Source of the DNA: a virus
Length of the DNA: 20,792 bases
Reading direction: 5' to 3' (one strand)
IMG/VR virus record: IMGVR_UViG_3300033144_002384
Location: 1 to 20,792 of that record
The translations under genes were made by a program, and so were the position numbers. Of this stretch, positions 2,261 to 18,261 are shown in pieces; positions within the stretch are counted from its first letter, which is position 1, and each line of letters starts with the position of its first letter. The notes under the pieces were generated by a model. The model was not told the origin of the DNA, made no database searches, and saw only the letters and a list, made by a program, of their open reading frames with translations.

Positions 2261-2378
2261 TGGCATAACCCTCTACCCAATACAGACGACAGACTTCTAC
2301 GTTGAAGATAATGGAGACGTGTGCATGTCCGAGTTCTACTTCAAAGAAGTATTGCAAGCAAAGATAAAGGAGAAATAA
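2187..2378 (+). CDS. Rz1-like outer-membrane lipoprotein spanin (o-spanin)
   Basis: A 63-residue protein with a textbook lipoprotein signal: basic N-terminus (K5, R8), hydrophobic core (about 9-18) and lipobox L-S-S-C with the acylated Cys at 22. The mature part would be only 42 residues, anchored in the outer membrane with its end in the periplasm. Its first 74 nt overlap the i-spanin gene in a different frame, the embedded or overlapping Rz/Rz1 arrangement known from many phages of Gram-negative hosts. A GGAAGGAG ribosome binding site lies within the i-spanin gene, 5-8 nt before this ATG. Together the pair would disrupt the outer membrane in the last step of lysis. No endolysin is visible in this window. 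Confidence 0.75.
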   Translation: MHWQKLTRLGVLLILTMSLSSCVSSGITLYPIQTTDFYVEDNGDVCMSEFYFKEVLQAKIKEK

Positions 2379-3391
2379 TGACAAGAGGAGAGATCAGAGA
2401 TATAGCCCGAAAGAGGCTAGGTGAAACCACCTCAGCCTTCTGGACGGACACAGAGCTGAATACCTACATAAACCTCGGGTGTAAAAACATTGCTTGGAGA
2501 ACTAAGTGTCTTAGAGACGTTGGCTACATAAACGTCGCTAGTTGTGACCCGAACTCTACAGCAGCTGTCACTACAGAGTGGGTTATATCCTCTGATCTCG
2601 ATACCAATGCTTTTGCCATTAATGAGGTTTATTTCAAGAGGGAGAACACTACCTACCGAAGAATACTCCCTGCAGCTAGGGAGGAGCTTGATGTTGAGAC
2701 AGAGGAATGGCAGAGTCTTGTAGGGTACACCAATATCCTTGACGCAGGAACAAACCTGTCCTTCACAGGAAGTGGTTTAGATGACATGACCTTTGGTGGA
2801 ACGTACAGTGGTGATGCTGCATCAGAGATATTGTACCGAGTGGTAATCGATGCGACAGGGACGCCTGATACTTTTGAATGGTTTAAGGGTGGGGTGTCAC
2901 AAGCATCCGGAGTATCTATTACTGGCTCCGCTCAGTCCTTATCTGATGGGTTCACTGTTACCTTCTTAGCTACCACAGGACACACGGTAGCTGATTACTG
3001 GGAGTGGGGTTCACCTACGATTACCTACAACTATAACTCACAGACAAGTGAGCCGTTGCAGTATTACTGGGTTTACGAAGAGGATGTGTTTGGTATCTAT
3101 CCTCCTCCAAGTGACCTGCATGATGGTGCGCCTCTGAAGATATATTATTCTAAAGACCATATTGATATGTCAGCAGACTCGGCAGTTCCAACGTTACCTA
3201 TCAACCTCCATCTTGCTGCCATAGATTACACGGTGGCATCAGGACTTGAGGATCGTGGTTGGGGTGAACGGGCTAACGACCATTGGAACAAGTACATCAA
3301 GAAGCTTCAGGACTATGGTATTGAGAAGGGCAAGCAACGTGAGGACGAGGAGATCATAATGAAGAACTACCGTAACGTAAGGATTAGTTAA
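2378..3391 (+). CDS. Head-tail adaptor/connector protein with inserted beta domain
   Basis: I start this at ATG 2378, which overlaps the o-spanin stop (TAATG) and has AAAGGAG upstream; an in-frame ATG at 2321 would lie inside the o-spanin gene. The 337-residue product begins like phage adaptor proteins of the gp4/SU10-type family: a helix 'MTRGEIRDIARKRLG', then 'FWTDTELNTYIN' and a Trp-rich helix. The later part has 'YYWVYEEDVFGIYPPPS' and a helical C-terminus (about 275-325), also family-like. Residues about 126-212 are an extra beta-rich module containing 'GTPDTFEWFKGG' and 'GFTVTFLATTGHT', a pattern seen in other phage tail and virion proteins. It would sit between portal and tail nozzle. 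The following gene, a nozzle-like protein, agrees with this order. Confidence 0.65.
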   Translation: MTRGEIRDIARKRLGETTSAFWTDTELNTYINLGCKNIAWRTKCLRDVGYINVASCDPNSTAAVTTEWVISSDLDTNAFAINEVYFKRENTTYRRILPAAREELDVETEEWQSLVGYTNILDAGTNLSFTGSGLDDMTFGGTYSGDAASEILYRVVIDATGTPDTFEWFKGGVSQASGVSITGSAQSLSDGFTVTFLATTGHTVADYWEWGSPTITYNYNSQTSEPLQYYWVYEEDVFGIYPPPSDLHDGAPLKIYYSKDHIDMSADSAVPTLPINLHLAAIDYTVASGLEDRGWGERANDHWNKYIKKLQDYGIEKGKQREDEEIIMKNYRNVRIS

Positions 3392-6300
3392 TGACAATAT
3401 CATCTATCGTAAAAGAGTGGTACATTAAGACCATGCCTGGCATGAACTCTAAGGTTGAGGACTTTGACCTTAAAGACAAGTGGGCTGAGATTGCACAGAA
3501 CTGTCGGTTTGAGGATGAGCCAGGTGCTTTGAACAAGAGAGAGCCATCCTCTTACCTAAACACTACAGCTTTGGGTGGCTCTTTAGGTGACCCAATGGTA
3601 GGACTGTACCGATATTATACATCAACTGGGTTGATTACGTGGGTAGCCGTATCCGGAACAAGTGCCTACACTGTGACTGATGCGGGTGTTGCCACAGAGA
3701 TTAGAGCTAATTTATCAGATGCCAAGAGATGTTCGTTCGAAACCTACCAAGATCAGCTAATCGTCTCAAATGGCTTTGACGACGCTTGGGTGTGGGATGG
3801 TGCCTCAGACAACGTTACTTGGGAATTAGGTGGCTGTAAGGCTATCCTAGGCGCAGCAGGAGGCAACCTAGATGCGTCTAGCGACTATTATTACGCTGTA
3901 ACCTATGATGATGATGCTGTCAACACAGGTGCCGTGTCTAATACCGTATCCACTGATGGAACAAACTTCAGGATAGAGCTGTCCAATATCCCGCGTGGCC
4001 CCGTAGGAACAACCAACCGTAAGATTTATCGTACGGAAGGTGACGGCTCTGCATTAAAACTCCTAACAACCATCGCAGATAATACCACAACCACATACTC
4101 AGATAACGTTGCGGATGGATCATTGACGACAGCCTATCCAGCAGTTACTGATGATATGCCCAAAGGTTCTATCCTGAAAATGCATAGGGAGAGGCTATTC
4201 ATTACAGCCGATCCTAACAACCCGAACACCATATATTACTCTAACCCTTACCTGCCTCATTTCATACAGCAGACACAGGGTCTTGATTTCATGGAGATTA
4301 ACCCTGATGATGGTGATGAGATCATGGGTATTCCCATCCAGCTTGAGAAGATGGTCTGCATTAAGAAGAACACGATCAGGAAAGTCCACGTTACCTCCGC
4401 TGTCTCTGGTGCAGATCCGACAACGTGGTACGCTGACGATCCTATTGCATGGATAGGAAGTCCAGCTCAGTGGTCTATTACTCAGACACCTAATGGTGTA
4501 GTCTTTCTTGGGTGGGATCACTGGTACCTGTTTGATGGAGCAAGCGCGCAACCGGTCTTTGATGAGTTTGACACAGGAGATATTCTTGAGTCCAACTTCA
4601 ATGATGTTGTAGGGTACTGGCACAAGGAGAACTTCATTGCTGGTTACACAGACAAGACCTCTGCTGCAGCAACGCACAACAGGTTGCTTGTGTATAACTT
4701 AAAGAGGCAAGCTCTATCCTTTGACCTATGGACAGGCGTTGACATCACTGGTCCTAACTGCTTTGGTTCAAGGATTGGAGATGACGAGCAAGGTGACCTA
4801 TACGTTGGTGACTCTGTGAATGGTTACATCATCAAGGAGAAAGACACGGACAGCGTTTACAGACTAAGGACAAAGACAGAGGCTAACGATTACTTTAACG
4901 AAGGACTGTCAGGTTCAGTTGACCCTGATGAAACACACGATATATTTGTCGGAGGAACAGAGAACGCTCCGTACATAGAACTGGGTGCAGAGGTATCAGC
5001 CGACGTTATTCCTGATGACATTGTAATCTTTTGGGACAACGAAGTGACAGACCCTGGCTCTGGTTGGACAGAGATAACCGGTAACGAAGACAAGCTGATT
5101 AAGATAAATGCAACGGCTGGTACTTCCGACGCTGGTACTTCACACAATCACTTATTGACTGGTTCAATTCCTCAATGGACTGCTGCTGTCACTAACGTTG
5201 GAGATGGTAACCCTAATGCAATTGCTCAACACACGCACGAAGTCTCGGCTAACTCTGACGGTGCAACTCCTATACCACGAAGCATTGTGTACAGAATGTT
5301 TAAGAAGAACAACTCTACTGTTGAGAATGAGTTTCCTGATGGAGCTTTAATCTTCTGGGATCAAGCAACACCACCAGAGGGATGGATTGAATCAACGGAC
5401 ATAGGATATTATGTGGTTCAAGGAACAGCAGACTTAGCCACTCAAGTACCTTCTCAGCATGACCATACGTTCACTAACATACCAACTGGGACAGCAGCAG
5501 GTAACTTAGCTCAGTCTGACAGTGGTGACTTGGCTCCAAGATTTGGTCACAACCATACAATAACTGGGATCATAAGCACCGAAACGTTGGAAACTTGGGA
5601 AGTTGATTACGTTGCTATGGCACTCATCAAGAAGGTTGGTGAGACAAGTTCTTGGGATGGCATAGATAAGTATTGCTATGCTCTCTTTGCCTCTGCGACT
5701 GCTGCTAGTGATGGGTGGACTGATGAGACTGCAACCTATACCGGAAGGTTCTTAAAGATTGGTGATGGTGCGCCAGTAACAGGGGACGCAGCCAACGCTA
5801 GCCACAACCATACGGCTGGAGTATTCACCACCAGCACAGAGAGTGCGACTTGGGGGAATGGTGGGTATCATGCTCATGGGTACGTGGCTCCTCATACTCA
5901 CCAAGTTACGCTATCGAGCACAGCAAAGGATTTAGGAACGCCACCTTCTATTACTTTCAGGCTTTTCAAGAGAGTGCTAGGGACGATGAAGCCTTACAAC
6001 AATGCGGGCACTGTTTCCGTAACAGCAGGGACATGGGTATCTCCATGCGCTCAGATTGATTCTGACTCTTTGTTAAAGATATACTGGAATGAAACTCTCG
6101 TAGGATCTGATGATATAATTTTACACACAAGGACCGGTCTGACCCAAGTTGCCTGCGAAGCAGCTTCGTGGTCAGCCGGCCTAACCAATCCTAACGGCTC
6201 TGACATCCTCTCGTCTGCCAGTAGTTTTCTTCAGTACAAGATAGAGTTCACGGCTACTGACTCGACAGTCTCTAATCCAAGAGTTTCCTTTACTGATGGA

Positions 6301-6654
6301 TATGTGGTAAAGTATGAGTACCACGGAGGAGTGACCGTTGCTGAAACATCTGTGAACTTTAGGTACAGAGTAGGATTAAGGAACTTTAACATGCCCTCTA
6401 TGGACAAAATCTTTAAGAAGATTATCAGCCGGCACGTTGGAGAGTTTGGGTCTTTCAATGTTTTGTGGGAGACAGAGAACGCTACTGGAACGTTTCTTGT
6501 TTCTCTTGACGACTACCCTACTCAGTGGGATAGTTATTTCCCGTCGACAGCGTATGGGAAAGAAGTTAACTTTGAAGTACAGAAGAATGACCTTTACAAC
6601 TTTAAGATGTCAGAGATTAAAGGGTTGTTCTCACCGCATAGGACTATCATATGA
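3391..6654 (+). CDS. Tail nozzle/tubular-like protein with three collar-like units
   Basis: This 1087-residue protein starts at a TAATG junction with the adaptor gene. Residues about 1-490 are beta-rich with repeated Trp/Tyr-Gly-Asp strands (for example 'YLFDGASAQPVFDEF', 'DLYVGDSVNGYI') and resemble podovirus tail nozzle (gp12-like) proteins, thought to be propeller-like. Residues about 539-862 contain three successive units of about 100 residues, each starting with a 'D-x-x-(I/L)-F-W-D...GW' strand and ending in 'R-x-F-K', and each carrying His-x-His motifs (585/587, 614/616; 690/692, 720/722; 805/807, 827/829, 835/837). Such motifs recall phage tail-collar and fibre domains that bind metal. 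Residues 870-1087 return to a beta-rich body domain, so the collar-like block is inserted in the protein. Role inferred from size, fold hints and gene order. Confidence 0.6.
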   Translation: MTISSIVKEWYIKTMPGMNSKVEDFDLKDKWAEIAQNCRFEDEPGALNKREPSSYLNTTALGGSLGDPMVGLYRYYTSTGLITWVAVSGTSAYTVTDAGVATEIRANLSDAKRCSFETYQDQLIVSNGFDDAWVWDGASDNVTWELGGCKAILGAAGGNLDASSDYYYAVTYDDDAVNTGAVSNTVSTDGTNFRIELSNIPRGPVGTTNRKIYRTEGDGSALKLLTTIADNTTTTYSDNVADGSLTTAYPAVTDDMPKGSILKMHRERLFITADPNNPNTIYYSNPYLPHFIQQTQGLDFMEINPDDGDEIMGIPIQLEKMVCIKKNTIRKVHVTSAVSGADPTTWYADDPIAWIGSPAQWSITQTPNGVVFLGWDHWYLFDGASAQPVFDEFDTGDILESNFNDVVGYWHKENFIAGYTDKTSAAATHNRLLVYNLKRQALSFDLWTGVDITGPNCFGSRIGDDEQGDLYVGDSVNGYIIKEKDTDSVYRLRTKTEANDYFNEGLSGSVDPDETHDIFVGGTENAPYIELGAEVSADVIPDDIVIFWDNEVTDPGSGWTEITGNEDKLIKINATAGTSDAGTSHNHLLTGSIPQWTAAVTNVGDGNPNAIAQHTHEVSANSDGATPIPRSIVYRMFKKNNSTVENEFPDGALIFWDQATPPEGWIESTDIGYYVVQGTADLATQVPSQHDHTFTNIPTGTAAGNLAQSDSGDLAPRFGHNHTITGIISTETLETWEVDYVAMALIKKVGETSSWDGIDKYCYALFASATAASDGWTDETATYTGRFLKIGDGAPVTGDAANASHNHTAGVFTTSTESATWGNGGYHAHGYVAPHTHQVTLSSTAKDLGTPPSITFRLFKRVLGTMKPYNNAGTVSVTAGTWVSPCAQIDSDSLLKIYWNETLVGSDDIILHTRTGLTQVACEAASWSAGLTNPNGSDILSSASSFLQYKIEFTATDSTVSNPRVSFTDGYVVKYEYHGGVTVAETSVNFRYRVGLRNFNMPSMDKIFKKIISRHVGEFGSFNVLWETENATGTFLVSLDDYPTQWDSYFPSTAYGKEVNFEVQKNDLYNFKMSEIKGLFSPHRTII
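5005..5976 (+). repeat. Three diverged collar-like protein units in the nozzle-like gene
   Basis: The units cover about 5005-5304, 5329-5631 and 5662-5976. They are repeats at protein level only; the DNA has diverged. Shared landmarks are an opening strand with Trp or Phe then a Gly-Trp ('FWDNEVTDPGSGW', 'FWDQATPPEGW', 'LFASATAASDGW'), a first His-x-His (SHNH, QHDH, SHNH), a second one (QHTH, GHNH, PHTH) and a closing 'YRMFKK' / 'MALIKK' / 'FRLFKR' strand. Unit 3 has an additional H827-A-H829. The order of landmarks matches the phage tail-collar type of fold as I know it, but the family call is by eye. Confidence 0.55.
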
Positions 6655-8649: not shown

Positions 8650-11600
8650 ATGCCAAACCTACATGAAATCTTTAAGAACTTACCTAAGCAGCCTGCACCT
8701 AGGTCTAAGAATCCCTTTGCTCAAGCAGCCACACAGATAACAGGTGGTGTGAAAGAGGGAACTCTTGGGATCATGAAGGGTATGTCTGACCTTGGAGTCG
8801 CTACTGGCTCTGTGTTCGGTGATGAGAAGCTTAAGAAGAAGTCCGAGAAACTCTCCCAATACTTTGCAGGACAATTAAACAGACCTGATGTTGTCAAGGG
8901 CCGTGAGGTTATGGCTAACTGGCAGAACCCGGTACAGAAGTCTCTGCGCCTACTGGGTAACGCTGCGCCTTCTATTGTATCAGCATGGACAGGTGGAGGC
9001 ATAGGTGCTGCTGTTGGTCGTAAGGCTTTAGCTGGTAAGGCAGGGAGATCCCTACTAGCTGGTGGGTTGAGCAAGTTTGGGAAGGATGTAACGAGAGCAA
9101 ACCTAACCAAGTATGCTCCGAAGGTAACAGGGTATCTTGGTGCTGTCGCTGGCTCTATACCACTGGGTACTTCCATTGCTGGTTCGTATTGGGAGGAAGG
9201 TGTTGCACATGGCAAAGACCCTAAGGACAAAGGTCACTATGCTATGGCTCTCACCGACGGGGTTGCACAGTCCTTACTTGAAGCCATGCCATTCATGGGT
9301 TGGATGAAGGGTGGGAAGCTCCATAAGAGAGTGCTAAGAACAGCACTACAAGAGGGTGGTGAGGAAGTTATACAAGGGTTTCTTGAGAACTCCTTAAAGA
9401 TCGTTGGTTGGAAGGGAACAGAGAACCTTTACAATGACATGATGACAGGCATAGCTGAAAACTTTGTAGCTGGTGCGCTGTCTGGTGGTTTACTGGGTAC
9501 AGTCCCACGCTTGTCTGTTACCAGAGCTGATATGATCCACGACATTAAGAACAACGTTGGTAAGACAGTCTATAAACAAGCAACAGAACAAGGACACATG
9601 ACCAACGGTGAGCCTACCACACTTGAGCAAGTCATGGAAGTTACGGAAGCCCTTGTTAAAGAAGTTGACATCCACGATGACCTCTTACTACCAGTGCTGC
9701 AGAAGAAGTTAAAAGAATCTATGGGTATGAAGAGTGAGAAGAAAGCTACCGGAGACCACGAGGTTGTTCAGAGAGCGAAGATACAGGACGGTGCCATTGC
9801 TTCTACATCAGATGATACCTACGCACGTAAGCCTATTGGCAGAGATGTTAAGCGAGAGGAGAACAGACGGTCAAGGATTGAGTTTGTTTGGCAGGACATA
9901 CAATATAAGATTGGTGGTAAGTTTGTGGAGTGGTCTAAGATACCGGAGATCATTCGTTGGAACATACAGAACAACCCCAAGATGAACATTGTTAAAGACA
10001 TTGCAGGTAACTTAAAACAAGTTGCCGACGAGGAATTAGATAGATTTATTGTACACACTAAGGGACGAGAGAACTACAGCAACCCATTAGCAGATGTATT
10101 CTTTGGACCATTAAGACAGCAAGAGACTCAGACATGGAAGAACAGCTCCGTAGAACAAGAGGAGAAGGCCGGCATACATGGTGACATATGGATACGTGAC
10201 TTACCAGAGCAGATCAAGAAGCTAGGGTTAAACCCTCGTGAGATTGAGTTCGTAGGTGCAGGTTCAGACGATGCTCTTAAAACTTTCATACAAGTATGGA
10301 ACAAGCAGAACCCCGACAATCAAATAGTCCTCACCAAGCAGGCGTTGGGAGCTAAGGTCAGACCAGGCAAGAGAGGTAAGGCTACTCTTCCTCTATGGGA
10401 TTACTTTAAGACCAGCCAAGAGAAACTGGTAGAAGATGGCACAGACTTGCTTGACCTTGCAGCAGAAGAAGCTATGGAAGGGTCTGAGAAGAAGGCAGCC
10501 TATGGCGACCAGCCTACTTACTTGAGGATGGTACACTCAGCCATAGAGAACGCTTGGAAGGCTGCTAATGATGTGGCTGATGGACACCCGGTAAAAGTAG
10601 CTGCTGAGATGTTGGCACAGATAGCCAATGGGAGAGTGTTCGTTGCTGCTGGTCTTGAGTTACCTACTGTCCAAGACGTAGCCGCGCTGTTCAGTGTATT
10701 TAGAAACCCCTTCCTTGAGATAACACAAGTCGTCTATGTCAACCCAGATACCAACAAGATCATTGAGCATGAAGCTATCACTGTAGGACTTCCCGGTAAA
10801 ACTGTTATAGACACAATAGGTACAGCCGAGAAGGCTAAGCGTATGGGAGCACAGTACTACGTCCTTCATAATCACCCTGGAGGAAAGGTTGCTCCATCTA
10901 AACAAGACATGACTACCCACAAGTCGCTGACAAAGGACAAGGCGTACAGAGGACACATAATCCTCGACCATAAAGACTTTGCTTTTATCAATAGAGATGG
11001 AACAGTGGATACTAATGTTCATGAGAAAGCTAAACTTACTGACTTCAACGTGGGTAAGAAACCAATACAGAAGCCGTTAGATTCTATTGAAAAGATAACT
11101 GATTTCACAAACAACCAGTTCAGGAATGGTAAGATCACCCTGTTCCTAACCAACATTGATAACCTCATTAGCGTTGTTTACATTGGTACTGACAATGTTG
11201 TAAAGGATATTCGTAGAGCTATGAGAGATAACATGGCTCAGGGTTATTTGATAGGAGCTAAAGAGGAAGCTGTAATACCTGACAACATACCCGAAGGTGC
11301 TCAAGGCGTTATCATCCACAATACTGATGGGTCATATGACGTTAGACCAGTTGACTTAGACAAGCAAACTTTAGTTGGGTGGCCTAGTGTTAAGAGTCAA
11401 CCGAAGGTATCGTTGACCACCATGCTCACCGAGCAACAGCCAGGCGAGGCTATCAAGGATGAGGAGCGTGTGCCTGGCATGTTGGGTCAGGGTTGGAAAG
11501 CAGAGGACAGGATATTCCCAGAAGGTACTCCAAGAGATGTGGTTGCTAAGCAAAGCCTGACACCTGAGACTAAGGAGAAGGGCAAAGCATTCAAAGATTT

Positions 11601-14600
11601 GATGAGGAAGAAGCAGGTCAAGTTCCCACCGGTTACAGAGGTGCCTGAGAAGGCTAAGGCACAGACACGCAACGCTAACCTAGTCAACGATGCTATGCGT
11701 ACGATCAATAAGGGCACGACACCTGTACCTGACGTCAAGTCTGTACCGGGTATGCTACGTCAAGCAGGGTTCTCTGTTGTCAGCAACGAAGAGTTTGAGA
11801 CGATGGAACAGCCTGTGGGTCAAATCATATATCACACCACCAATTCAGACGTGGCAGCACAGATAAGGGAGAAGGGTTTTTATCGTTCTTCTGATCCTGA
11901 ATGGTTTGGTAATTTTGGTAAACCTTCTGGTACGTGGTTTGGAAACCCTGCAGATTGGCAGTTCCTATGGGACGAGAATCTTGGTGGTAGGGATGCCGAC
12001 AAGAGAGAGGTTGTAGAGGCTAAGCTTGCAGACGATACTAAGGTGTGGGAAGGTGGCACTCTTGAGGATGTTGAGAAATACCTTGGCAAGAAGATAAGCT
12101 CCTATAGTTATAAGACAGAGCCTATTGTTGTTAGCGCACGCATGAAAGAGGCTATAAAGGAAGATAACCCACAATATACTGATGCAGAAGTAAGGGCACA
12201 TGCCTTAAAGTGGACCAAGGATGGTACTACTGTCAGAGGTGAGACGTTCCAAATGATGCGTGACCTTGTTCATAAGCTTAAGAAGGACGGCTATGATGGA
12301 ATCCATTACGTTCCTTCATTCCAGAGTCAAGACTACAGCATAAGTAACATGAGTTATATTATGAATAATCCTTGGGAAGGATGGGATGCTGAGTCCACAG
12401 TCATATGGAATAACGAGAAGATTTATGTGGCAGGTCAGCAAGGCACAGTTGACCCCAACAGTCAGAGTGAAGGTGGTGACATAGCTGAGCTTGCCCAAAC
12501 CATCAAGCCTGTACTATCTGAGGTGGTTGGTAACATCAAGGTTCCGCTTGGCAGGGTAGGCGAGACCACTCCGGGCAAAGGTATATGCGACAGGACGTGT
12601 CAGGTCATGGTGGAGACGCTCAAGAAGGCTGGCTTCATTGCCAATGTCAAGGAGATCAAGGCTAAGTCACCTGTGGGACCCTTCCAGATTACCCATAGAG
12701 TAGCTCAGGTTGTCCTCAATGGTGCGAAGTACCTCATAGATGACCCTCAGCATAGGTTTATAAAGGAAGGCGGTAAGGACGAAGGTGGCTGGTTGTCAGG
12801 TCATGACCCAATGAGGCATGGGTTTGAGGGGCCCTTCCAGCCATACGGTGGGATGGTTGAGGATATTGGCGACTTGGCTCAAATGTTCACAAAGGAAGGG
12901 TTATACCTAGAGGACTTTGACACTACTCTTAAGTTCACTGACATTGAAAAGAGAGGTGCTTACACCTACGGTAAGATTAAAGGTGACCCCAACCATGTTG
13001 TAAGAATACAGACGCAAGACATAGAAACTGGCTCAGGATATTCCATTGAGTACAGGATGATAACTGGTGCAGCCGTGTGGATCAAGGAGTTCTTCCAGCC
13101 TGAAGTCTTTGAGGAGAACGAGGTAACGTTGAAGGCGTACAAAGACGGTACCATAGGAACGGACATCAAAGGGGTGGAAGTGTTGAGCCATAACACATGG
13201 CAGGTAGGCGACAAGTACATACCAGGTGCTAAAGGCACTGCTAAACAGCCAGGTCCTATCCAGCTCCCACAACAGACTCCGGGTAAGAAGCTCAAGGGTG
13301 AGGAGAAGTGGAAGGCAGAGCAAGCCTACCGAATGACTATTACTGATGCGATTAACGAGAGGATACTGAAGGAGGAGAAGGCAGACCTAGAGCTGACCAA
13401 ACCTAGCAAGACGAAGGAACAGCTCATCAAGGAACGTGAGGCTATGGCTAAGGCACCGGTTGAGGAGAAGGCGAAGCGTATCACCCAAGAGGATTTGCAG
13501 AGGATATTTAAGACTGGGGTCAAGCCTGACCTAAAGGTTGGCTTTGGTAAGAAGACAGGTGTAGAGCCAGTAGGAGCAGAGGCAGGTACTAAGTTAGGGT
13601 TTAAGGCAGACCTATTCCCATCTCACACAGCACTGATGGAAACGTTGGACGAGTTAAGCCGGCTTATGGATAGAGTTGAAGGCATTGGCACAGACGCTAC
13701 CATGAAGGTACGTAAGTTCTTCAAGAAGTTTGGTGGAGGGAAAGAGCTTGGGTACTTGCTGGATGACTTTATCAGAATGAACACGGCTCCGTTAGCTGAC
13801 CCACTTGCCAGTCCTGAAGGGTTCAAGGAAATCAACTCCTTCTCTATTATAGACCTGCTCAACGAACTGGGTGAGCTTGGGTTCATGCCCGGTGATGAGA
13901 TACACGCCACTGGAACGAACTTAGCCAAGAGCATACACGCAAGACTTGAGAAGATATTTTCAGAGGTTGATGACAAGAAGAAGATGAGAGCTAACGCAGA
14001 GGCTATTGAACAGATCCGTTCTATCCTATGGCACATCAACTCTGACCCTGACATCATGACACGCTATGAACTGGAAGCCAGCGTACGAGGTGAGTACCAA
14101 ATCTTTGGAGAGAGTGGACAGCTCGTCAGTGAGATAGCAAGAGCCAGTAGGTTTAAGACCTACGTCATCATGCGTCGTGTCCTGTCATACTACAGCAAGT
14201 TAACCGGTATGACTGATGCTCAGATGAATAAGAAGTTCGGTACTAACTTCTCCAGTAACCCCAACGATGCCATGCTCAACATGGATAAGGTTGAGACACC
14301 ATTCCGACAACAAGCTAAACAGACAGCCAAAGAGATTAGAGAGGGTGAGACTGGGTACACATGGTTTGGAGCAGTAGGTAGAATCGGTACCAAACGTGTT
14401 GGTATCATACCTCACCTTAAGTCATTCCTTAAAGACAAATCTCTCAGCTCCCAAGACGCTGAAGCCATACAGACTAAGATTGATGAGCTAGAGAAGGTCG
14501 TTAAGTGGATGGAAACAGGCTCTGAGACAGAGTTAAAGGGTGAAGCTAAGTATGAACTAGGCAGGTTCAAGGGGATAACAACTCTCCGTGATGAGTTTAC

Positions 14601-17600
14601 CGACGAGCAGAGAGCAGCAATGAGAGAGGAGTGGAAGAAGGCAGGTGGTGTATGGTTCTTTAAACCACACGCAGTCTTTGACATCATTGACAACTCCCAC
14701 AACGTATTGCAAGCAGGAGCTTATGAGATTATACCAGCCGATCCAAAGAACGAGTGGAGAGTCCGGTTATCACAAGATGGTGGGAAGACTGGGCCTGTCA
14801 TATTACTGACTGACATAGAGTCAGAGTTTGTGACAAGGAATCAAGGCAAGGGTACACCAGCTCAAGGTAAGAAGTATGCTGTCAAGAGCTTTACTAAAAA
14901 CATTGCCCTCTACACCAAGGCAGAGATAAGAAGCATCATTGATAACAAGCTCATCCCTGGTCGAGCACCGGTCAATGAGTTCTTGGAAGCTCAGAAGAAG
15001 AAGAAGAACGCACGCAAGAAAAAGTACGCTTCCCTTATATCAGAGATCAAACGGCTGTCTGGTAAGAAGCGTGACGCAACAACCGCCAAAGCATTCAAGA
15101 GTTTGGAAGCCAAGCATGGCAAGTGGGAGTTCAAGATAGCCATGTCTATGGTTGAGAATGAGATGGTTAAGACAGCAGATGCTAAGGCACGTCAAGCAAT
15201 GCTCATGGAGATGAAGCGAGAGAACGCAGAGGAGGCAGAGCGTGAGAGGATAGCTGAAGGTGGTAAGCCACAAGGTATCAAGAAAACATTTGCCGTACAG
15301 TCAGAGTTCACGATAGGTGATGAGAGTGAGATAGATAAACCACAGGCACAGCGTGAAGAGGAAGGTCTCACCGAAGAACCTATCCAGCCTAACACTGACT
15401 TTGAATTAGGACAGGACACATCTCAGGCAGCAGTTGACCAGAACAAGACGTTCAACGGTACGCCTACTGACAAGAAGGGAGAGAAGCATCCTACCAACGT
15501 GGCTAGGTTTGAGTCACGCAAGCTGAAGATGTACAAGAAGGTGGTTAACTTCTTCCTTCAGGACAGCGACGCTACCATGGACTTCTTAGGTAAGTGGGTT
15601 AAAGGTGGGGAGGAAGAGATCAAGAAGATGCAGGGTGAGGTTGCACCGGCTAGCAAGACTGTTATGGACATGGTCATTGAGACTGCCATTAAGGACAAGA
15701 ACTATGTCAAGTTGGCACAGCTCAAAGGATTCCAAGTACAGAACATTATCAGTCAAGAAGTCTTGAAGGAGATGAAGCGACTATACCCTGACCTATCGTT
15801 GGATGAGCAGAAGAAGAAACGCCTTGAGTGGATGGATTACATGAACGATTCTGGTGAGGAAATCATCCTTATCCCAGGCAACACCTTACAATACACGGTG
15901 TCTGACAAAGGCATTCGCCATCCTTACGAGGCGGGTGAGAAGCGTGTTCACGGTGAGAGAGATGCCAACGTTAAGAGGCTTACGGCATTGTACACGTTAA
16001 GGCATGGTAAAGAACCAACAGCTCAACAGAAAGCTGTATGGAAACACCACAGACCAGGGTTGGCTTATTTCAGTATGCTGACACCTGCCTTACAGAACAT
16101 TATTCTATGGAACAAGGCTAACGTTGAGGACACCATTTTCTTCGCTGCCACACCTGACGTACTGACCAGAGCTGACAACGTTAACAACAGAGCGGCCGGT
16201 TACTCACCGCGCATGTTCTACAAAGACGCAGAGAGCATGAACTCTAGCAATGGTGTATCACAGACCATAGGCTCTCAACGTGTCGCTGCTCGTAAGATGA
16301 GAACGTATGCAGAGTTTGCTGAAGAAACAGGTGGAGCTCTTAAGCCTGTTAAGAACTACGCTGCTAGCGCAGGTTGGTATACCAAAGAATATCTTATTCG
16401 TATCCACCAACAGAGCATCATTGAGCAGTTCAAGGGTGTACGTAATGCATCCAGTGACCATGACATAGCTGTCATCACCTACACGGAGGATGTTAGGACT
16501 CTATCAGAAGCTCTCGGGTACAAGTCACCTGCTGACTTCCTTGTTGACCAAGGGTATGATCGTATGGACAACGCTCAAGGACTGACAAAGCATTGGAGAG
16601 GTAAGTTCCTTCGTCCGTGGGTACACCGTAGCGTCCGGCACACTATCAACAGGTTCTATCTTGAACCACAGGAGAGGGTTGGAGTCATAGCTGAAATAAA
16701 TAAGTGGGCGGGTAGGATGAAGCGATTGATTATGATGATGCCTCACCAATTCGCCTTACAGATTACCTCGTCCTCTTGGTTGTGGGGTGAAGGTGACGCT
16801 GGTGAGAAGATGAAGAAGGCATGGGTCAATGGACTAGAGCCTATGTTTAATCCTGTCAAGATAGCTAAGGGCATGAAGCTTGGTAGAGACAGGCTGGAAG
16901 ATCCGTTTAAAGGACAGTCGGAGGACTACGAACAGAATGTTATAGACCAGAAGCTCCTAGAGTTATTCATCCGTCATGGACTACGAGCCATGAACCAGAG
17001 CTGGATGCAGGAAGCTCTCTTTGACACAGAGAAGTACGCTAAGCACCCTATGGATATGAACAAGCGTGAGAAGTATGAGGAGCTTGTCTTTGGTAAGGGT
17101 GGGCTGGACAACTATATCTTTGAGCAGTACATGGGCAAGGCTATCTATCGATACGCACAAGCCATGATGAACAGGTTTCAGAAGCAGAACTCTAAGCTGA
17201 CAGACGACGAAGCCGCACAGCTCGCCGTTAAGTTTGTCAACGATACCTCCGGTACTCTACCCAGCTACATCTACGGATCAGAAGGACAGTGGTTACAGTT
17301 CGCTTTGTTTGCTCGTGACTTCACCATGAACTTTGACCGACAGCTCACAGGTGGTGCGTATGGACTCATGCCTACTGCTGTAAGGGACAATCTCTACAAG
17401 ATGCATCCCAACGCTAAGATACTCAACCCGCTGTTCCATGGGGAGTCTACGACAGCAGAGATGGTGTTCCTTTCACCTTGGTACCGTAAGCATCTCGCCT
17501 ACACGACTGCTATTAAGGTAGGGTTGTTTGCTATGCTCCAGTTTGCCTTGTGGCATCACAGACCTGAGGATGAGAGGGAAGAGAAGGACAAGTGGATGTG

Positions 17601-18261
17601 GTTCAATGAGGTGAGCAAGAAGGCATCGATCAAGATGCCAGGCATAGGCCCTGATGACCATGACTACTACCTTGACCCTATCATTTGGCGTGAGCTTTCC
17701 CAGTTCATGAACCTCTTACCAGAGGAGTACGGTGGAAGAGGGATACCGGGAGTGGCTGTGTCTAAGATGGCTGTACCACTGAAGCTTATCTTTGATGCGT
17801 GGGCTAACGAGGACTACATGGGAACACCTATCAGAGACCCCGGTGCTAACCCAGGCAAGAAACTGGCTCAACAACTGTGGTATTCTGTCAAGCAGGTGCA
17901 ACCATCAGCATACAAGAGGCAACCAAAGGAACTAGGAGAGAACATACCAGCTCGTGTTGGTCAGGTGTTCGGTGTTCCTACCAAGCGTAGCGCGTACCCA
18001 AGAGGTACAGATGCGAAGGAGATGCGTGACCTTAGGAAACGACAGGCAACAACGACCTTCAAGAGAGGGAAGATCAGAGGGGATGTGAAGAATGCCTCTA
18101 TGGATCAGCTGGTAGACATGATGCTTGATGGGAAGATCGGTCAGGAGCAGTACAATAATGAGATCCTGCGCCGCAAGTTTACCCAAGGATACTTCATGAA
18201 AAGGAACTACAAACGACTGCTTCAAGATGAACTAAAATACGAATCTTTATATGGTGAATAG
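8650..18261 (+). CDS. Giant polyvalent protein: RadC-JAB, ART-like, papain-like domains
   Basis: One uninterrupted frame of 3203 residues, about 46% of the window, starting 1 nt after the preceding stop. Visible order: helical region with Gly/Ala-rich hydrophobic stretches (about 1-300); unknown globular part (about 390-600); RadC-like JAB/MPN+ domain (about 680-785; E690, H740-N-H742-P-G-G, S750, D753); ADP-ribosyltransferase-like domain (about 1055-1260; Y1061-H1062-T, G1214-Y-D-G, E1248); candidate papain-like domain (about 1300-1380; C1313/C1317, H1349, D1364/D1365); long helical, charged region with a Lys-rich stretch near 2113-2130; and a conserved-looking C-terminal helical part (about 2400-3203) with one hydrophobic stretch near 2953-2969. 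This matches the 'polyvalent protein' class of phages and plasmids, where enzymatic domains acting on host targets are joined in one protein delivered with the DNA. Delivery in the virion is inferred from its place after the internal virion genes. No lytic transglycosylase or HExxH motif was seen. Confidence 0.85.
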   Translation: MPNLHEIFKNLPKQPAPRSKNPFAQAATQITGGVKEGTLGIMKGMSDLGVATGSVFGDEKLKKKSEKLSQYFAGQLNRPDVVKGREVMANWQNPVQKSLRLLGNAAPSIVSAWTGGGIGAAVGRKALAGKAGRSLLAGGLSKFGKDVTRANLTKYAPKVTGYLGAVAGSIPLGTSIAGSYWEEGVAHGKDPKDKGHYAMALTDGVAQSLLEAMPFMGWMKGGKLHKRVLRTALQEGGEEVIQGFLENSLKIVGWKGTENLYNDMMTGIAENFVAGALSGGLLGTVPRLSVTRADMIHDIKNNVGKTVYKQATEQGHMTNGEPTTLEQVMEVTEALVKEVDIHDDLLLPVLQKKLKESMGMKSEKKATGDHEVVQRAKIQDGAIASTSDDTYARKPIGRDVKREENRRSRIEFVWQDIQYKIGGKFVEWSKIPEIIRWNIQNNPKMNIVKDIAGNLKQVADEELDRFIVHTKGRENYSNPLADVFFGPLRQQETQTWKNSSVEQEEKAGIHGDIWIRDLPEQIKKLGLNPREIEFVGAGSDDALKTFIQVWNKQNPDNQIVLTKQALGAKVRPGKRGKATLPLWDYFKTSQEKLVEDGTDLLDLAAEEAMEGSEKKAAYGDQPTYLRMVHSAIENAWKAANDVADGHPVKVAAEMLAQIANGRVFVAAGLELPTVQDVAALFSVFRNPFLEITQVVYVNPDTNKIIEHEAITVGLPGKTVIDTIGTAEKAKRMGAQYYVLHNHPGGKVAPSKQDMTTHKSLTKDKAYRGHIILDHKDFAFINRDGTVDTNVHEKAKLTDFNVGKKPIQKPLDSIEKITDFTNNQFRNGKITLFLTNIDNLISVVYIGTDNVVKDIRRAMRDNMAQGYLIGAKEEAVIPDNIPEGAQGVIIHNTDGSYDVRPVDLDKQTLVGWPSVKSQPKVSLTTMLTEQQPGEAIKDEERVPGMLGQGWKAEDRIFPEGTPRDVVAKQSLTPETKEKGKAFKDLMRKKQVKFPPVTEVPEKAKAQTRNANLVNDAMRTINKGTTPVPDVKSVPGMLRQAGFSVVSNEEFETMEQPVGQIIYHTTNSDVAAQIREKGFYRSSDPEWFGNFGKPSGTWFGNPADWQFLWDENLGGRDADKREVVEAKLADDTKVWEGGTLEDVEKYLGKKISSYSYKTEPIVVSARMKEAIKEDNPQYTDAEVRAHALKWTKDGTTVRGETFQMMRDLVHKLKKDGYDGIHYVPSFQSQDYSISNMSYIMNNPWEGWDAESTVIWNNEKIYVAGQQGTVDPNSQSEGGDIAELAQTIKPVLSEVVGNIKVPLGRVGETTPGKGICDRTCQVMVETLKKAGFIANVKEIKAKSPVGPFQITHRVAQVVLNGAKYLIDDPQHRFIKEGGKDEGGWLSGHDPMRHGFEGPFQPYGGMVEDIGDLAQMFTKEGLYLEDFDTTLKFTDIEKRGAYTYGKIKGDPNHVVRIQTQDIETGSGYSIEYRMITGAAVWIKEFFQPEVFEENEVTLKAYKDGTIGTDIKGVEVLSHNTWQVGDKYIPGAKGTAKQPGPIQLPQQTPGKKLKGEEKWKAEQAYRMTITDAINERILKEEKADLELTKPSKTKEQLIKEREAMAKAPVEEKAKRITQEDLQRIFKTGVKPDLKVGFGKKTGVEPVGAEAGTKLGFKADLFPSHTALMETLDELSRLMDRVEGIGTDATMKVRKFFKKFGGGKELGYLLDDFIRMNTAPLADPLASPEGFKEINSFSIIDLLNELGELGFMPGDEIHATGTNLAKSIHARLEKIFSEVDDKKKMRANAEAIEQIRSILWHINSDPDIMTRYELEASVRGEYQIFGESGQLVSEIARASRFKTYVIMRRVLSYYSKLTGMTDAQMNKKFGTNFSSNPNDAMLNMDKVETPFRQQAKQTAKEIREGETGYTWFGAVGRIGTKRVGIIPHLKSFLKDKSLSSQDAEAIQTKIDELEKVVKWMETGSETELKGEAKYELGRFKGITTLRDEFTDEQRAAMREEWKKAGGVWFFKPHAVFDIIDNSHNVLQAGAYEIIPADPKNEWRVRLSQDGGKTGPVILLTDIESEFVTRNQGKGTPAQGKKYAVKSFTKNIALYTKAEIRSIIDNKLIPGRAPVNEFLEAQKKKKNARKKKYASLISEIKRLSGKKRDATTAKAFKSLEAKHGKWEFKIAMSMVENEMVKTADAKARQAMLMEMKRENAEEAERERIAEGGKPQGIKKTFAVQSEFTIGDESEIDKPQAQREEEGLTEEPIQPNTDFELGQDTSQAAVDQNKTFNGTPTDKKGEKHPTNVARFESRKLKMYKKVVNFFLQDSDATMDFLGKWVKGGEEEIKKMQGEVAPASKTVMDMVIETAIKDKNYVKLAQLKGFQVQNIISQEVLKEMKRLYPDLSLDEQKKKRLEWMDYMNDSGEEIILIPGNTLQYTVSDKGIRHPYEAGEKRVHGERDANVKRLTALYTLRHGKEPTAQQKAVWKHHRPGLAYFSMLTPALQNIILWNKANVEDTIFFAATPDVLTRADNVNNRAAGYSPRMFYKDAESMNSSNGVSQTIGSQRVAARKMRTYAEFAEETGGALKPVKNYAASAGWYTKEYLIRIHQQSIIEQFKGVRNASSDHDIAVITYTEDVRTLSEALGYKSPADFLVDQGYDRMDNAQGLTKHWRGKFLRPWVHRSVRHTINRFYLEPQERVGVIAEINKWAGRMKRLIMMMPHQFALQITSSSWLWGEGDAGEKMKKAWVNGLEPMFNPVKIAKGMKLGRDRLEDPFKGQSEDYEQNVIDQKLLELFIRHGLRAMNQSWMQEALFDTEKYAKHPMDMNKREKYEELVFGKGGLDNYIFEQYMGKAIYRYAQAMMNRFQKQNSKLTDDEAAQLAVKFVNDTSGTLPSYIYGSEGQWLQFALFARDFTMNFDRQLTGGAYGLMPTAVRDNLYKMHPNAKILNPLFHGESTTAEMVFLSPWYRKHLAYTTAIKVGLFAMLQFALWHHRPEDEREEKDKWMWFNEVSKKASIKMPGIGPDDHDYYLDPIIWRELSQFMNLLPEEYGGRGIPGVAVSKMAVPLKLIFDAWANEDYMGTPIRDPGANPGKKLAQQLWYSVKQVQPSAYKRQPKELGENIPARVGQVFGVPTKRSAYPRGTDAKEMRDLRKRQATTTFKRGKIRGDVKNASMDQLVDMMLDGKIGQEQYNNEILRRKFTQGYFMKRNYKRLLQDELKYESLYGE
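10687..11004 (+). other. RadC-like JAB/MPN+ metalloprotease domain in giant protein
   Basis: Residues about 680-785. The segment H740-N-H742-P-G-G-K-V-A-P-S750-K-Q-D753 is the MPN+ zinc site (HxH...S...D) in the form seen in RadC (HNHPSG-x-x-x-P-S-x-x-D). Upstream, E690 in the strand 'NPFLEITQVVYV' is placed like the catalytic Glu, and 'HIILDHKDFAFIN' matches the RadC 'LDHIIV' strand. In other polyvalent proteins such domains are proposed to remove ubiquitin-like or other peptide tags; the substrate here is unknown. Confidence 0.8.
11812..12429 (+). other. ADP-ribosyltransferase-like domain in giant protein
   Basis: Residues about 1055-1260. Three signatures appear in the order of H-Y-E-type ADP-ribosyltransferases: strand 1 'IIYHTT' (H1062) followed by a helix and 'GFYRS'; then 'GTWFGNPADW' around 1094-1103, like the 'G-x-Y-F-(A/T)' NAD-pocket strand; then 'KKDGYDGIHY' (1211-1220) and 'ESTVIWNNEKI' with E1248 as the candidate catalytic Glu. 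The arrangement resembles ART domains known from phage polyvalent proteins. Activity is not proved; the second aromatic residue is W/F rather than a plain Tyr. Confidence 0.65.
12547..12789 (+). other. Candidate papain-like thiol peptidase domain in giant protein
   Basis: Residues about 1300-1380. 'GKGICDRTCQVMVE' provides two possible catalytic Cys (C1313, C1317) at the start of a helix. It is followed by 'THRVAQVVLNGAKYLIDDPQH', where H1349 starts a strand and D1364/D1365 end the next. A helix-Cys, then strand-His, then 'Y-(L/F)-I-D-(D/P)-P-Q' is the layout of papain-like/transglutaminase-like toxin domains (Tox-PL-like). The call is by motif order only and needs a profile search. Confidence 0.4.

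Follow-up and report, generated by a model that had tools for sequence, protein, structure and literature searches.

The window analyzed here covers an IMG/VR virus record in full (20,792 bases), and the question it raises is what a single protein of 3203 residues, P0001, is doing downstream of phage tail genes. The answer we consider probable is that P0001 comes third in a podoviral ejection triad, is the largest of its proteins and would act there as a carrier with clade-specific cargo. The single 9.6-kb open frame described in an earlier note on this DNA was borne out, with an ATG start and 3203 uninterrupted codons; this frame and the other features are listed in Table 1. The gene order in the window is a LamG-type gene (within which the window starts), an SU10-type adaptor gene, a phrog_511 tail protein gene, two short genes and the giant, followed on the 3' side by a PD-(D/E)XK exonuclease-like gene and then a Sak4-like annealing protein gene. 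No terminase or portal gene was found within the 20,792-base window, and, among the matches listed, no tail gene of the window was directly similar to N4. A small protein encoded at 1137-1841, amid the tail genes, contains two CxxC pairs (aa 156/159 and 194/197) and is likely a zinc ribbon.

Table 1. Positions of the features of P0001 and its neighboring genes in the 20,792-base window.
Feature	Position	Strand	Basis and remarks
SU10-type adaptor protein, podoviral tail context	2321..3391	+	Pfam PF24175, 3.5e-9; 3 Cys in 356 aa
Nozzle-like/phrog_511 tail protein, conserved marker for finding syntenic relatives	3391..6654	+	phrog_511, 1.5e-8; 8 Cys
Small protein 1 of presumed ejection triad, 285 aa	6895..7752	+	0 Cys; position and zero Cys kept in 6/6 relatives examined
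Small protein 2 of presumed ejection triad, 298 aa	7752..8648	+	0 Cys
P0001, giant polyvalent protein, putatively ejected	8650..18261	+	Open frame, 3203 aa
N-terminal module (N-module), aa 8-364	8671..9741	+	blastp 1e-29 / 5e-25; resembles N4 vRNAP N-region (hhalign)
Motif EGGEEVIQ in N-module, aa 235-242	9352-9375	+	
Variable cargo region, aa 365-2295	9742..15534	+	No homology to any of 11 counterparts
RadC-type JAB domain, aa 674-774	10669..10971	+	PF04002 over cut-off; i-E 7e-20
ART-like region, aa 1060-1260	11827..12429	+	Block signature test; HMM negative
Possible papain/NlpC/transglutaminase-like thiol site, aa 1305-1375	12562..12774	+	Sole two Cys of protein; no profile match
Conserved helical C-terminal module (C-module), aa 2296-3195	15535..18234	+	blastp to 1e-105, alignments A1/A4, AF2, Foldseek BFVD

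A tblastn search of the giant against 50,697 phage genomes gave no match, patterns taken from the single protein found no relatives in viral scans, and no bacterial genome relatives (host or prophage) were found in GTDB scans. The productive viral queries were a DNA pattern for the JAB domain, a pattern for the N-terminal motif, and the neighboring tail gene, which returned 19 and 39 loci in viral contigs and of which a slice is 62-83% identical in relatives (members of alignment A3); the C-terminal core as query returned nine loci. Eleven full-length counterparts of 1711-3038 aa were compared (L223-L229, L239, L240, L243 and L244). The C-module was common to all eleven, with P0001 residues 2296-3195 matching L223 at 6e-105 and other counterparts at 9e-90 to 2e-12 and 4e-73 to 7e-56 by blastp, while L229, the most distant, aligned to other counterparts and not directly to P0001. 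The N-module was additionally common to the two closest counterparts, L223 and L224. These conserved ends enclose a middle which in P0001 is wholly its own when compared with the eleven. In nine of the eleven (L223-L228, L240, L243 and L244) the middle carries an HExxH motif, which is similar between several of them; a zincin HExxH was looked for in P0001 and is absent, a JAB domain being carried instead. The stretch around HExxH is common to L227 and L228, and in L228 it weakly matched Peptidase_M78. The earlier view that about 1800 further residues of the giant hold no features was wrong, residues 2296-3195 being a conserved family module.

Structure prediction of the C-module with AF2 from ten sequences (pLDDT 66.5, pTM 0.62) produced a model which was nearly all helical. 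Foldseek comparison with BFVD viral models gave 46 matches at E<=0.001, many of which carry the name of a large-polyvalent-domain (LPD) phage protein; the best had an E of 5.1e-10 and a prob of 1.00, but TM to LPD-named proteins was only 0.3-0.4. No significant match was obtained to the PDB by Foldseek, and no Pfam LPD family, PF18857 LPD38 included, matched P0001. Assignment of the C-module to LPD38 by sequence was rejected, since hhalign to the LPD38 set performed no better than shuffles. In kind, the C-module probably corresponds to the LPD modules, though it is not a detectable member.

With respect to the contents of the middle, the JAB domain proposed from the sequence was confirmed as a RadC-clade domain. 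Pfam RadC (PF04002) matched aa 689-774 with 28.2 bits against a cut-off of 22.1, NCBIfam RadC models matched as well, and a jackhmmer family started from 74 phage JAB stretches recruited P0001 with the span and value given in Table 1. The zinc signature HNHPGGKVAPSKQD, of the HxHP(x)nSxxD type, is intact at aa 740-753 (10867-10908). In Pfam and NCBIfam only RadC models matched this domain, and no classic JAMM (Prok-JAB/JAB) model did so. The RadC JABs of polyvalent proteins have been argued to have no groove that would accommodate a ubiquitin tail, with nucleic acids or nucleotides as the likelier substrates (Iyer et al. 2017, PMC5512222). Because the P0001 domain belongs to this clade, tag removal, the role that the earlier note had given it, is the less likely reading and found no support, and the domain, judged from its sequence, probably acts on nucleic acid or a nucleotide.

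Downstream of the JAB domain, four blocks of an ADP-ribosyltransferase (ART) signature occur in order: IYHTT at 1060, GTWFG at 1094, LKKDGYDGI at 1210 and AESTVIWNNEKI at 1247. The blocks were short and were read by eye from ART-PolyVal members of other giant phage proteins, with P0001 excluded. P0001 scored 45.0 against a maximum of 37.1 among 3000 shuffles (mean 19.0, sd 3.3), a result which is partly post hoc because the blocks and gap limits were picked after the P0001 motif was known. It ranked 11th among 1478 proteins and, of the 1477 others, outscored every ORF not ART-like by its record. Nine of the ten proteins above it came from Pfam-family-positive records, and the tenth, L121, lay outside that Pfam search and had the same block score as the positive L126; some of these ten had themselves supplied blocks. 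Of the ordered signature H (strand 1), Y (strand 2) and D/E (strand 5), P0001 has H1061 and, at 1248, an acidic residue; its aromatic in the second block is W1096, at a position that most ARTs fill with Y, F or H. The ART-PolyVal HMM (PF18760) gave no match to P0001 at E<=10, and hence none at its gathering cut-off, and the region matched nothing in Pfam, PHROGs, NCBIfam or the PDB. A regular expression for ARTs was dropped as overfitted, having matched no other ORF of the set, Pfam-positive ARTs included. The ART proposed at this site was supported by its ordered blocks but not by any profile, and we are reasonably confident that aa 1060-1260 represent a putative ADP-ribosyltransferase. The model for such an activity is T4 Alt, a packaged and injected ART (PMC5512222).

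A polyvalent protein was taken to be one with at least two effector domains in one chain, encoded in a phage structural or packaging neighborhood. With its RadC domain certain, its ART recognized at block level, and adaptor and nozzle-like genes adjoining, P0001 falls within this class, as had been claimed for it.

The third site proposed in the middle was papain-like. Its residues are present (C1313, C1317, H1349 and D1364/D1365), but the region matched no profile (Pfam, PHROGs, NCBIfam), no PDB chain and no phage protein. More generally, the profile searches that the earlier note had suggested placed the RadC JAB over its cut-off but returned no ART or peptidase match. A loose C-H-D regular expression had one match in P0001 and was present in 9 of 5000 shuffles of the protein. 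The 3203-aa chain has no cysteines besides C1313 and C1317, and because both fall in the motif a thiol function is hinted at. A putative thiol enzyme at C1313/C1317 is plausible, with chances that we put at about even, while the CxxxC could instead bind metal or form a disulfide. One competing explanation goes further, taking C1313/C1317-H1349 for a metal or disulfide site or a chance arrangement and the ART-like region for a decayed or unrelated fold. It draws on the lack of any profile, PDB or family match in the region and on an AF2 model of aa 1041-1485, built without homologues, which reached a pLDDT of only 34 and was discarded; set against it are the placement of both cysteines of the chain in that one motif and an ART block score within the range of Pfam-positive ARTs. 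We regard this explanation as a serious one, to which we nevertheless give somewhat less than an even chance.

The N-module bears on how such a chain might reach the cell. An iterated N-module profile also covered many unrelated giant phage proteins with the motif EGxEExxQ, one of which weakly matched the PHROG of the N4 virion RNA polymerase (vRNAP). When compared by hhalign with the N-regions of ten N4-like vRNAPs, a broad N-module set, biased because its loci were picked by the EGxEExxQ motif, gave a prob of 94% and a score of 62.9, and a control set of three sequences not so picked gave 77%, a score of 45.7 and an E of 2e-5. Controls with shuffled columns scored at most 18.2 and a reversed alignment 18.5. 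N4 gp50 has RETVEEGVQ at the place corresponding to the N-module motif. A relationship of the N-module to the N4 vRNAP N-region is therefore supported at the level of sequence profiles. No vRNAP polymerase domain was detected in P0001, as neither phrog_2206 nor a Pfam polymerase family matched. In many otherwise unrelated giant phage proteins (L074-L193), EGxEExxQ is followed by a Gly-rich stretch, usually in the first ~650 residues.

The presumed triad is depleted of cysteine, with 2 in 3786 aa (2/3203 in the giant and 0/583 in the two upstream genes; Poisson P of about 2e-10 at 0.75%). The LamG, adaptor, nozzle-like and 1137-1841 genes together encode 16 cysteines in 2045 aa (~0.8%). At six counterpart loci the two genes preceding the giant were likewise without cysteine, and the nozzle-like gene had 4-13. 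Ejection of the N4, T7 and P22 proteins used here for reference (genes in L278, L279, L309 and L310) is established. Among these, N4 gp50, gp51 and gp52 have no cysteine in 4294 aa, T7 gp15 and gp16 none in 2065 aa with a single one at position 2 of T7 gp14, and P22 gp7, gp20 and gp16 none in 1309 aa. Cysteine contents are mostly normal in the portal, coat and tail proteins of these phages, although P22 gp26 has none. Across phage ORFs of at least 600 aa with the N-motif, cysteine made up 0.061% versus 0.814% in the remaining long ORFs from these loci (P 2e-18), the latter set still containing possible antisense frames. An oxidizing periplasm or unfolding on exit likely lies behind this avoidance, and cysteine scarcity could also have causes besides ejection. 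No mention of a cysteine signature of ejected proteins was found in the literature available as open-licence full text.

In N4-like phages, vRNAP ejection has likewise been supported, and in phage DEV the giant vRNAP gp71 is an ejection protein in the gp73-72-71 set (PMC10925440). By gene order the trio in the window corresponds to DEV gp73-72-71 and to T7 gp14-15-16, which we counted in favor of an ejection triad. Three observations favor delivery of P0001 with the DNA, previously suggested from its place after two ejection-like genes, and from them we infer ejection: synteny, an N-module like that of the N4 vRNAP, and the scarcity of cysteine in all three genes of the triad. It might be argued that P0001 is mainly a structural protein or ejection conduit in the manner of T7 gp16, with a middle serving assembly, cell-wall passage or self-processing. 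The giant does follow two cysteine-free small proteins, its conserved ends are the sole family-wide parts, and relatives carry a peptidase-type motif in the middle, where metallopeptidases (MPTases) of such proteins may self-process (Iyer et al. 2017, PMC5512222). RadC and ART-like cargo has, however, no known conduit role, and a host-directed function suits the cargo better because it differs wholly among close relatives with conserved tails; we consider a mere conduit unlikely. Quite improbable is that P0001 stays in the cell as a late DNA-processing (RadC) protein placed by chance in a structural operon since, although RadC domains also occur as small standalone phage proteins and in DNA-processing contexts (PMC5512222) and the PDDEXK nuclease and Sak4 genes directly follow the giant, the N-module is N4-vRNAP-like, the cysteine depletion equals that of proven ejected proteins and the triad order is conserved.

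Under the carrier reading, the proteins of 285, 298 and 3203 aa would form the ejection triad of a short-tailed phage, and the giant would be packaged in the head and ejected before or together with the DNA. The N-module and the helical C-module would serve packaging, passage and docking, and the ~1930 aa between them would be cargo that can be exchanged and that is released into the cytoplasm; in this phage, RadC, ART and thiol domains would replace the HExxH metallopeptidase of most relatives. Like T4 Alt, the ART would modify a protein of the host; the thiol enzyme may be directed at a host protein or serve to process the chain. It is possible that the cargo acts as a combined counter-defence set.

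P0001 shares with the phage polyvalent proteins (Iyer et al. 2017, PMC5512222) a very long chain encoded in a structural region, RadC and ART-type domains, helical linkers and predicted packaging, but differs in having no detected Pfam LPD family and no MPTase HExxH, and its possible thiol enzyme lies outside the four peptidase superfamilies described there (zincin, assemblin, DD and LonC). With the vRNAPs N4 gp50 and DEV gp71 it has in common the slot after two smaller ejection proteins, a length of 3.2-3.5 kaa and a related N-region, and with N4 gp50 also the near absence of cysteine, whereas it has no detected RNA polymerase domain and another middle and C-terminus. T7 gp16 and P22 gp16, likened here other than by direct sequence comparison, are also the last and largest of a three-protein ejection set and are cysteine-free; P0001 is much longer, with several enzyme-type domains. 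The IMG/VR polyvalent proteins L011, L049 and L019 have a RadC JAB and a long helical C-terminus as P0001 does, and the N-terminal region of L011 was picked up by the iterated N-module profile, but they carry Pfam LPD38, which is undetectable by sequence in P0001. Other giant phage proteins in the viral records included a cysteine-free JAB protein with a GGDEF (diguanylate cyclase) domain (L028:2-6793, E 2.3e-11) and one with a zeta-toxin kinase domain and a RadC JAB domain (L029:1897-7986).

The earlier note had thought the combination of domains possibly undescribed. Polyvalent phage proteins are already known, and a phage protein that joins a JAB to an ART has a precedent in L035, where RadC and ART-PolyVal occur within one frame; in the full viral record (G020) that frame has 8163 aa, exceptionally long for a phage protein. 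As far as our searches show, what is new is a family whose ends are conserved while its middle varies completely, the replacement of HExxH by RadC, a likely ART and a possible thiol domain, and the cysteine signature.

If the carrier reading is right, P0001 is a natural delivery scaffold, whose conserved ends move a chain of more than 3000 residues from the head into the cell while the middle is freely swapped. A more general proposal, towards which we lean slightly, is that phage proteins ejected through the envelope avoid cysteine and may be recognized as a run of cysteine-free genes, that leftover cysteines such as C1313/C1317 would mark active sites, and that the giants would be carriers whose ends stay fixed while the cargo is exchanged. 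If this is true, the long-standing question of which virion proteins are ejected would become answerable from sequence, and C1313/C1317 would be flagged as functional, a concrete starting point for work on a possible thiol enzyme among the polyvalent proteins.
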